Source: a virus. Taken from it: 38,310 bases of DNA. This document shows, one piece after another, positions 22,127 through 23,248 of the stretch. The position numbers were made by a program, and so were the translations under genes. Numbering within the stretch: position 1 is the first letter of the stretch; each line of letters starts with the position of its first letter. The notes under the pieces were generated by a model that worked only from the letters and a program-made list of their open reading frames with translations, was not told the DNA's origin and made no database searches. Location: positions 1-38,310 of the IMG/VR virus record IMGVR_UViG_3300017749_001886; one strand, given 5' to 3'.

Positions 22127-22552
22127 TTATTTAATTTTAATTGTACGAGGTTTCTTTTCCTCTGGTACAATCTTTTCCACATCTATTAAAAGCATTCCAT
22201 CTTTCAATTCAGCAGCATTTACAACTACATCATCTGCAAGTGTAAAAGATTTGGTGAATTTTCTTTTTGAAATACCTCTATGTATGACCTCATCATCTTT
22301 CGAATCAGACTCACTATCAACCGATTGTATTTTCAGTTGACCGTTAGCAGTTTCAACAGAAATGTCCTTCTTGCCAAAACCTGCAAGTGCCATTTCAATC
22401 TGCCAATTGAAGTCATCTATCTTTTTAATATTGTAAGGGGGGAATGTTTGTGCCTTTTGATGTGTCAAATGCATATCAAAGTGTTCAAACAAGTTGTCGA
22501 AGCCTACTGAAAACGGTCGTAGGTCATTCCAGATTTGTAATGTTCTATTCAT
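22127..22552 (-). CDS. hsp20: small heat-shock protein (Hsp20/IbpA family)
   Basis: 141 residues. An ATP-independent chaperone that holds unfolded proteins. The alpha-crystallin domain spans about 40-130: FPPYNIKKIDDFNWQIEMAL, the GQLKIQ strand, RGISKRKFTKSFTLADDV and AAELKDGMLLIDVEK. The C-terminal IKIK fits the I-x-I anchor used in oligomer assembly. Hsp20 is common in marine T4-like phages. The promoter gap contains both TTGACA and TATAAATA, and the ribosome site AAAGGAG is strong. Confidence 0.93.
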   Translation of the reverse strand: MNRTLQIWNDLRPFSVGFDNLFEHFDMHLTHQKAQTFPPYNIKKIDDFNWQIEMALAGFGKKDISVETANGQLKIQSVDSESDSKDDEVIHRGISKRKFTKSFTLADDVVVNAAELKDGMLLIDVEKIVPEEKKPRTIKIK

Positions 22553-22583
22553 TTTGTTTCTCCTTTTTAAGCGAGTTATAATT

Positions 22584-22606
22584 TGAGTCCCATAATTGGC
22601 AACTCA
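22584..22606 (-). other. 5' stem-loop in the hsp20 leader
   Basis: TGAGT (22584-22588) pairs with ACTCA (22602-22606), extendable by two C-G pairs inside. It begins four bases after the TATAAATA box (22611-22618), so it would lie at or near the 5' end of the late transcript, as seen after the boxes at 183-190 and 22914-22921. Confidence 0.45.
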
Positions 22607-22610
22607 TAGT

Positions 22611-22642
22611 TATTTATATAAGTACGATTTAAAAAATGTCAA
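22611..22642 (-). promoter_or_regulatory. combined early/late promoter for hsp20
   Basis: An exact TATAAATA (22611-22618) plus TTGACA at 22637-22642. With an 18-base spacer the host -10 would be TATAAA (22613-22618); with 16 bases, TATATA. Spacing is less ideal than in the other promoters. Confidence 0.6.
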
Positions 22643-22650
22643 GTACTTAG

Positions 22651-22908
22651 AAAAAATATATTGGCGGAGGTAGGTCTCACCCTCTCTTATTCCTAACTTG
22701 TCTTACCAAGTATGTCAGTTTATCTTTCCTTGCTTGTTTTACCAAGTCTGTCAGTTTAAAACTGCTACGAAGACCAATGGGCCAATATAAAAACGGCGAT
22801 TGTTTCTGTCTGTAATAAATCACGACAAGGGACAATCGTCAAACCCTAAATGGTGTCTTTGCGGAAGACACTCTACCTCTTAATACCAGGACTTACGGAC
22901 TGCCTAGT
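22651..22908 (-). ncRNA. candidate structured noncoding RNA, late-promoter driven
   Basis: This fills the only gap over 300 bases. Reading the minus strand from the TATAAATA at 22914-22921: hairpin P1 (22882-22890 with 22903-22911, nine pairs, one G-U); perfect 7-bp hairpin P2 (22853-22859 with 22865-22871); long-range stem P3 CGATTGT/ACAATCG (22797-22803 with 22832-22838); then a closing stem of nine pairs (22657-22665 with 22781-22789) plus GGTCT/AGACC (22673-22677 with 22771-22775). The closing stem encloses two 36-base tandem repeats (22686-22721 and 22722-22757, 29/36 identical). Each repeat holds a small ACTTG...CAAG hairpin. Six T follow the last stem (22651-22656), as at a terminator end. 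No known RNA family is recognised. The 5' end is uncertain by several bases. Confidence 0.6.
22686..22757 (-). repeat. two 36-base tandem repeats inside the candidate RNA
   Basis: Copies 22686-22721 and 22722-22757 share 29 of 36 bases. The minus-strand core AAACTGACA-n-ACTTGGTAA is kept in both, and both can form the ACTTG/CAAG hairpin with a GTAARA loop. In the one open frame the seven differences fall on codon positions 1, 2 and 3 about equally, which argues against coding. Confidence 0.8.
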
Positions 22909-22913
22909 ATTAC

Positions 22914-22921
22914 TATTTATA
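22914..22921 (-). promoter_or_regulatory. late promoter box TATAAATA upstream of the candidate RNA
   Basis: An exact late box 13 bases after the stop of the HTH gene. No -35 is visible, as expected for a T4-type late promoter. The first candidate hairpin (22882-22911) starts within a few bases. Confidence 0.65.
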
Positions 22922-22933
22922 CAACAAATAGAC

Positions 22934-23248
22934 TTAGTTATTAGAATAAGCGTATTTTTGTTTGCCGTATAAAGCACGAATTCCTGCAGCAACTATTTCG
23001 TTAGTAGTACCTTTAAATACTTTCTTAACGCCAGCAGCTAGAATTGACTTAGTAGGTGTACCCATTCTATATGAAGTACCAGAAGCAGTTTGGTTTATGT
23101 AAACCATATGTCCTTCTGTTCTAAGTTGATCTACCATCGCTCTTGGTGATGTTAAATCGAACCTATTTCTTAAAGTAGTCCATGCAACAGGATTACCTTT
23201 TGATAAAAGGTTTATCACCTTTTGTTTTTTTGACAGTTTATTAGCCAT
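22934..23248 (-). CDS. small winged-helix-like DNA-binding phage protein
   Basis: 104 residues. KKQKVINLLSKGNPVAWTTL then RNRFDLTSPRAMVDQLRTEG and HMVYINQTASGTSYRMGTP read as a compact winged helix: helix, turn, recognition helix, then a beta-hairpin wing. Very similar proteins are common in marine T4-like phages without known function. The C-terminal 35 residues are basic. A strong AAGGAG site precedes the ATG, and the 86-base leader contains two mutually exclusive stems (23274-23323), which could control its translation. Confidence 0.6.
   Translation of the reverse strand: MANKLSKKQKVINLLSKGNPVAWTTLRNRFDLTSPRAMVDQLRTEGHMVYINQTASGTSYRMGTPTKSILAAGVKKVFKGTTNEIVAAGIRALYGKQKYAYSNN

Follow-up and report, generated by a model that had tools for sequence, protein, structure and literature searches.

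We found that the gap upstream of hsp20 in a T4-like phage of SAR11 (Pelagibacter) carries two separable RNA domains, M1 in its 5' part and M2 in its 3' part, whose compensatory changes across homologues argue that they form a conserved structured RNA. On this evidence we take M1 and M2 to be real and new RNA families (strictly, two) among the phage-borne structured noncoding RNAs. An earlier note on this DNA had proposed one new structured RNA here and had named compensatory changes in homologues as the check on it; many such changes were found and the structure holds up, and the single unit proves to be a fusion of two domains.

The window, by which we mean the whole 38,310-base virus record, was assigned to a T4-like phage from its PHROGs gene content, which includes genes for DNA polymerase, sliding clamp, clamp loader, Hsp20, ribosomal protein S21 and a CobS-like protein ("porphyrin biosynthesis"). 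The closest named phage is Pelagibacter phage HTVC008M, which matches in one stretch at 78% identity. No open reading frame longer than 52 aa overlaps the gap. The minus-strand folding energy of the gap is about that of shuffled sequences (z of -0.46, with 65 of 200 shuffles equally good), only one of six M2 copies has a z below -2, and TATAAATA is not enriched within the window (6 found, 8.2 expected). Since energies and box counts are unremarkable, the case for a structured RNA rests on comparison across homologues. Despite a better single-sequence energy on the plus strand (z of -2.42), an RNA on that strand was rejected, as the late boxes, the flanking genes and the homologous M2 copies read on the minus strand.

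Table 1. Features of the RNA-bearing gap and its surroundings. Positions are those of the window unless a locus is named.
Feature	Position	Strand	Description
phrog_4973 gene	22934-23248	-	flanks the RNA gap
Gap carrying the RNA	22651-22921	-	between phrog_4973 gene and hsp20
M1 domain	about 22795-22921	-	late box, two hairpins, pseudoknotted hairpin
T4-type late promoter box TATAAATA	22914-22921	-	exact match; putative promoter
M1 hairpin 1, core GGC-n-YCRUAA-G-N-CC	22881-22912	-	about 11 pairs, one bulge
M1 hairpin 2, GUGUCUU..AAGACAC	22853-22871	-	7 pairs, from the sequence
M1 hairpin 3	22795-22840	-	7 pairs; RNAalifold stem with both-side changes
M1 pseudoknot pk3	22828-22847	-	AGGG (22844-22847) with CCCU (22828-22831) in the hairpin-3 loop
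M2 module	22657-22789	-	covariance model R1 match 22660-22786, 90.8 bits
M2 closing stem P1	22781-22789 with 22657-22665	-	9 pairs
M2 pseudoknot pk1	22673-22775	-	GGUCUU (22770-22775) with GAGACC (22673-22678); complementarity
36-nt tandem duplication within M2	22690-22758	-	units 22690-22722 and 22726-22758
M2 hairpin P3, ACUUG-GUAAGA-CAAGU	22696-22711	-	covariation
M2 hairpin P4	22667-22684	-	GAGG (22681-22684) with CCUC (22667-22670); loop holds GAGACC
T6 run	22651-22656	-	directly 3' of P1; probable 3' end, putative intrinsic terminator
hsp20 late box	22611-22618	-	downstream of M1/M2
hsp20 leader	22553-22618	-	conserved hairpin, then CTCGCTTAA..AAGGAG
hsp20 gene	22127-22552	-	flanks the RNA gap on its downstream side
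Flavobacterium-1 RNA	L084:10376-10491; L135:5794-5911; L288:2443-2562; L455:3254-3374 (HTVC027P)		RF02976 model

Structure and covariation of the two domains

The exact late box and the three stems that the earlier note had reported are all present on the minus strand, and together they make up M1. Across M1-type rows, ATAAATA lies 14 to 17 nt ahead of the GGC core of hairpin 1 in 47 of 59, and in the window TATAAATA stands at this near-constant place before the RNA, as in a T4-type late transcription unit, with a predicted start site. The usual spacing of T4 late promoters would place the transcript start inside the 5' strand of hairpin 1. Among M1 homologues the core of this hairpin is near-invariant and its stem varies, with 420 of 486 pair cells canonical in 54 sequences compared to 340.6 after shuffling, a value that none of 1,000 shuffles reached. 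The 54 sequences are those of 65 M1-core candidates that have a promoter-like box, a step that removed chance matches; the window's own M1 lies outside this set because the pattern missed its UCCGUAAG variant. Stem variants of hairpin 2 among homologues include GUAUC/GAUAC and GUGUC/GGCAC. RNAalifold, run on 35 sequences, independently recovered hairpins 1 and 3, and 9 of its 14 M1 pairs are altered on both sides in at least one sequence.

We also found covarying complementarity (pk3) between the bases immediately 5' of hairpin 3 and those with which its loop begins, in the combinations AGCAG/CUGCU, AAGAG/CUCUU, UAGAG/CUCUA, ACGGAG/CUCCGU, AAGG/CCUU and AGGG/CCCU. In 44 distinct upstream/loop pairs the mean run of pairing was 3.30, compared to 2.45 with mismatched partners (0 of 2,000 permutations); a looser version of this test gave a smaller difference, 4.04 compared to 3.54 to 3.60.

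M2, a domain of about 75 to 130 nt, comprises a closing stem, three arms and a pseudoknot between junction and loop; about 35 of its residues are near-invariant. We collected 105 distinct copies, of which 57 remained at less than 93% similarity, 34 of a "long" and 23 of a "short" class. Hairpin P4 has 276 of 285 cells canonical in the 57 sequences (186.6 shuffled), and hairpin P3 has 165 of 170 in the 34 long-class sequences (120.0 shuffled); in neither case did any of 1,000 shuffles reach the observed value. For the closing stem P1 the count is 305 of 342 cells in 57 sequences against 233.6 shuffled (0 of 1,000), with both-side changes at 5 of 6 pairs in alignment A5, figures that somewhat favor P1 because its register was picked for the longest pairing before A5 was made and the shuffles had no such choice, which makes it the least independent of the helices. 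A5 itself, 19 long copies in fixed columns, has 98.0% of cells paired compared to 83.7% when shuffled (0 of 500) and both-side changes at 13 of 24 pairs, and sliding the partners by 1 to 3 columns lowers the pairing to 35 to 51%.

What the earlier note had seen as a two-part closing stem ending in six T is there in all its parts, as P1, the pseudoknot pk1 and the T6 run. Because pk1 is nearly invariant, its rare changes serve as its test. It is complementary in 88 of 88 distinct copies, as GGUCUU/GAGACC in 84, GGCCUU/GAGGCC in 2 and GGCCUC/GAGGCC in 2, and no non-complementary combination occurs; the anchors of pk1 had been fixed in a first count, and for the 88-copy count three pattern positions were left free. 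RNAalifold, which draws no pseudoknots, preferred pk1 over P4.

The two M2 classes differ in architecture. In the long class, P3 is a local hairpin with the loop GUAAGA, and its 3' side is formed by a strand that ends in UUAG; the counterpart of this strand in the short class pairs with a loop starting AUG (pk2), with 92 of 92 cells canonical in the final register (20 of 92 in an earlier register) compared to 72.7 shuffled and 0 of 1,000 shuffles. A small stem next to pk2 in that class yielded no consistent pairing. A given genomic site may hold either architecture. Upstream of hsp20 the long form is found in L006 and the short form in L044 and L045; upstream of a primase gene L121 has the long form, L089 and L106 the short; and behind a siphophage-type gene of about 69 aa the long form occurs in L084, L086 and L087 and the short form in L097, L318 and L331. 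The occurrence of both forms at shared sites suggests that a common core (P1, pk1, P4 and UUAG) is carried on exchangeable scaffolds.

The two tandem repeats described earlier are also present, 88% identical and spaced 36 nt apart. They prove to be incidental, a lineage-specific duplication inside M2 by which the 3' strand of P2 and P3 recur once more in the window in degenerate form, with the loop GUAAAA and with CAAGC-AAGG in place of CAAGU-UAGG. Only the window and its nearest contigs (L001 to L003 and copies) were seen to carry the 36-nt repeat, and the close relatives L004 and L006 have a single unit. A protein sponge, one of the roles that the earlier note had offered for the RNA, is not supported in so far as it would be built on these repeats, and was rejected because they belong to a single lineage. 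In unrelated phages (L015 and L082, the latter Kolga), arm P2 of M2 is lengthened by one and the same extra hairpin, GGGTTAACACAGACAACCC or close to it; a GGGTTAACACAGACAACCC-like hairpin also stands alone at L057:2840-2875, where M2 is missing. A GUAAG/GCAAAG-like motif is common to three loops, those of M1 hairpins 1 and 2 and of M2 P3 (UCGUAAGNC, CCGCAAAGAC and GGUAAGAC). The motif, which is missing from the short M2 class, might point to a binding partner that the loops have in common.

Distribution among phages and hosts

To count the domains we used 80 IMG/VR loci encoding phage Hsp20, with upstream sequences read for 38, and scored M1 as a late box plus the hairpin-1 core and M2 by covariance model R1. 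M1 was found in 73 loci and M2 in 32, with both in 31, M1 only in 42, M2 only in 1 (L005) and neither by these criteria in 6. By eye and pattern, M1 also precedes hsp20 in HTVC008M and, in a more divergent form, in Melnitz-3, a phage of OM43. The hsp20 upstream regions of three cyanophages and of Marine virus AG-345-P14 showed no M1. For the M2 core pattern CATTGGTCTT-N35-65-GGGTGAGACCTACC, IMG/VR has at least 120 matching stretches, and no match turned up among 84,980 species genomes of bacteria and archaea.

Among cultured phages, searched by blastn with four M2 representatives and the window as queries, M2 was found in the siphophages Aegir EXVC013S and Kolga EXVC016S and the myophage Mosig EXVC030M, all of them on Pelagibacter; Mosig has both domains, and Kolga and Aegir have M2 without M1. 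In Mosig, at L334:2923-3171, M2 is overlapped by two small annotated CDSs, Mosig_00015 and Mosig_00014, that probably do not represent genes. Two further groups encode, next to M2, proteins similar to those of phage 023Pt_psg01 and of Pelagibacter phage HTVC027P. M2 is absent from the fetched stretches of HTVC008M, Melnitz-3, HTVC027P and 023Pt_psg01; the primase site of 023Pt_psg01 has a plain hairpin in its place, and L057 has a simpler hairpin inside the same P1-like stem. What lies downstream of M2 varies between hsp20, a primase gene, convergent genes and a separate sigma70-like promoter, and M2 is independent of any one downstream gene. Many relatives lack M2, unrelated pelagiphages have it without M1, and its two architectures are interchangeable, all of which marks it as a portable module.

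When R1 was run against 297 Pelagibacterales genomes, it gave 13 weak matches (E of 0.008 to 0.09 per genome), which is about chance, in a search with stricter filters that a diverged host relative could have escaped. All six matches inspected among the eight fetched lie in ORFs (L463 and L464 were left out). A host-derived RNA was therefore rejected, the matches being at chance level and those inspected lying in coding sequence, as was rRNA mimicry, host rRNA-operon stretches sharing only 12- to 13-nt matches. In the collections searched, the RNA is restricted to phages.

Known RNA families and neighboring elements

The earlier note knew of no matching family, and our searches agree: Rfam 15 covariance models gave no match to M1 or M2 at the curated cutoff or in permissive mode (E up to 5), and the Rfam matches in the scanned M1/M2 loci fall elsewhere. 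The arm order P1-P2-P3-P4 of M2 is merely reminiscent of a cloverleaf, and neither ARAGORN nor RF00005 called a tRNA on M2. No tmRNA, one- or two-piece, was found by ARAGORN in the window or in 12 M2/M1 loci, or by Rfam, and a tRNA or tmRNA remnant was rejected on the ARAGORN results. GOLLD and similar phage-borne noncoding RNAs are structured, encoded by phages, expressed in infection and unclear in function. They are far larger than M1/M2, to which the Rfam searches gave no sequence match.

Other structured RNAs of marine phages offer partial parallels. PMC2864571 describes manA and wcaG, marine structured RNAs in T4-like phages, and reports manA ahead of ibpA chaperone genes in marine sequences. 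We found no Rfam match to them here (for manA, RF01745, none in 22553-22960 of the window up to an E of 5), and M1/M2, in contrast, has its own late box and is followed by separate hsp20 promoters. The same catalogue of marine and cyanophage motifs includes "Ocean-VI", which has no Rfam number and so falls outside the Rfam comparison made here. Two-piece tmRNA and glutamine riboswitches are reported in PMC9004378 for SAR11 and OM43 myophages including Melnitz and Mosig; like M1/M2 these are structured RNAs of such myophages, but ARAGORN and Rfam find no two-piece tmRNA in the window. In the sections available, PMC7029224 reports that Riboswitch Scanner found no riboswitch in pelagimyophages, and PMC12753301, on the HTVC022P and HTVC027P transcriptomes, does not mention noncoding RNAs. 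In the literature on small and noncoding RNAs of pelagiphages, covering mostly papers open without subscription, we found no report of an M1/M2 RNA.

Several other elements lie near M1 and M2. Flavobacterium-1 (RF02976), which Rfam types as an sRNA and which, like M2, is a small structured RNA of pelagiphages, lies 8 to 10 nt from M2 in 3 of 15 non-myophage M2 loci scanned, downstream in L084 and L135 and upstream in L288. Neither M1 nor M2 matches its model, which picks out a separate neighboring stretch, and in HTVC027P Flavobacterium-1 occurs in a fetched stretch without M2. Glutamine riboswitches (RF01739) lie downstream of M2 at L188:3810-3863 and L101:2499-2547, on two contigs that both carry S21. 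In Mosig-type loci (L085, L105, L109, L120, L151, L291 and others) there is a third conserved, structured-looking stretch, M3, within about 110 nt 3' of M2, which reads AATTCAG..GCGAGAGT..CTGAAT and then GGCATTTGCGCC.., and in many such loci a further hairpin follows before the hsp20 promoter. The hsp20 leader of relatives, and not M1 or M2, has a weak likeness to the ROSE_3 thermometer (RF02523), with 34.1 bits in Melnitz-3 (L466:1717-1779) and 31.3 bits at L061:2935-2997 against a cutoff of 43, which suggests that the hsp20 leaders are phage-borne heat-shock thermometers.

Possible roles of the RNA

The reading we favor, with a probability of about 0.5, is that of a phage noncoding RNA, some 260 nt long, that acts in trans and has a portable domain directed at the host, its transcription, ends, trans action and target all being predictions. 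Transcription would take place late in infection from TATAAATA on the minus strand and would end at the T6 run behind the closing stem of M2. M1 would form the 5' domain, with the transcript's 5' end tucked into a hairpin and a pseudoknotted hairpin as its close, and could be a stabilizing or second binding domain. M2 would be a compact 3' fold of P1, the arms P2, P3 and P4 and 6 bp that join the P1/P2 junction to the loop of P4, and as the effector it would bind a factor common to infected SAR11 cells, which may be a host protein, an RNP or the ribosome. The late promoter, the base-paired 5' end, the compact 3' domain and the window's T6 after the last stem point to a discrete late RNA, and trans action is favored by loose coupling to neighbors, spread over unrelated phages of one host group, a heavily conserved folded core and adjacency to a known sRNA motif. 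Unremarkable minimum-energy folding, and the position of M2 at stop codons in some phages, count against a discrete trans RNA, as does the comparison with host rRNA-operon stretches, which yielded no target. Nothing was found in favor of a packaging-related RNA, which the earlier note had also suggested.

The stop codons bear on the main rival, in which M2 acts in cis, at a transcript end or between cistrons, as a knot that closes an mRNA (S21-M1 or the siphophage gene of about 69 aa) at its 3' end and either stops 3'-5' exonucleases or marks a site for processing. We consider this unlikely, although in several sipho-type loci, and likewise at the primase site, M2 starts at a stop codon or within a few nt of one, and a T-run lies directly behind P1 in the window family. 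In addition, 23 of the 45 non-redundant M2 loci with enough sequence have S21 on the same strand, within 900 nt upstream, so that a link of M2 to the S21 transcript is possible; S21 is never otherwise placed within 1.5 kb of M2, and none was found in 22 of the 45. However, a late box and M1 precede M2 in 31 of 32 myophage hsp20 loci with M2, one group has M2 between divergent genes, ahead of a promoter, and near-invariance at some 35 residues is more than a plain barrier should need.

That M2 might be a small self-cleaving ribozyme of a new kind, or a signal for the processing and trimming of phage transcripts, is rather improbable. A small pseudoknotted fold with a conserved core, variable arms and a closing stem of variable length, scattered in phages, would suit such an activity, but no Rfam ribozyme family matches, no invariant scissile position can be named, and the conservation of M2 is heavier than is usual for known small ribozymes. 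The position of M1/M2 directly upstream of hsp20 in this group, and the precedent of manA, could point to a leader element (riboswitch or thermometer) controlling hsp20, which we hold to be very unlikely, as hsp20 has a late box and a leader hairpin of its own downstream of M1/M2, the hairpin being ROSE-like by weak, subthreshold matches in relatives, and elsewhere M2 precedes other genes; leader control was rejected as the main role. A put-like RNA that alters RNA polymerase to read through terminators is highly improbable: as expected of an element acting on the host polymerase, M2 is common to unrelated phages of one host group, but it sits at the ends of units, after hairpin 3 and before the T-run, and not in leaders upstream of terminators. 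The chance of an ordinary terminator region with fortuitous hairpins is negligible, and for M2, although single-sequence folding is not significant, this is refuted by covariation that 500 to 1,000 shuffles never matched; conservation in unrelated phages also speaks against it.

Returning to the trans-acting RNA, we regard it as possible, at somewhat worse than even odds, that M2 represents a new functional class, a portable host-takeover (or catalytic) RNA of SAR11 phages that is exchanged among myo-, sipho- and other pelagiphages with its core on two interchangeable architectures, one of two hairpins and the other of a second pseudoknot, within a wider store of shuffled modules (M1, M2, M3 and Flavobacterium-1). 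The cultured carriers (Mosig on HTCC1062, Kolga and Aegir) open expression, ends and function to direct testing, and the natural pk1 variants and the two architectures are ready-made structure tests. SAR11 are among the commonest cells of the ocean and their phages among the commonest viruses, and to our knowledge the noncoding content of these phages is almost unstudied. Judged from its conservation, the M1/M2 RNA is probably useful during infection, and a fold under clear selection, common to unrelated pelagiphages and absent from the host genomes searched, points to an RNA-based function that many SAR11 infections need.
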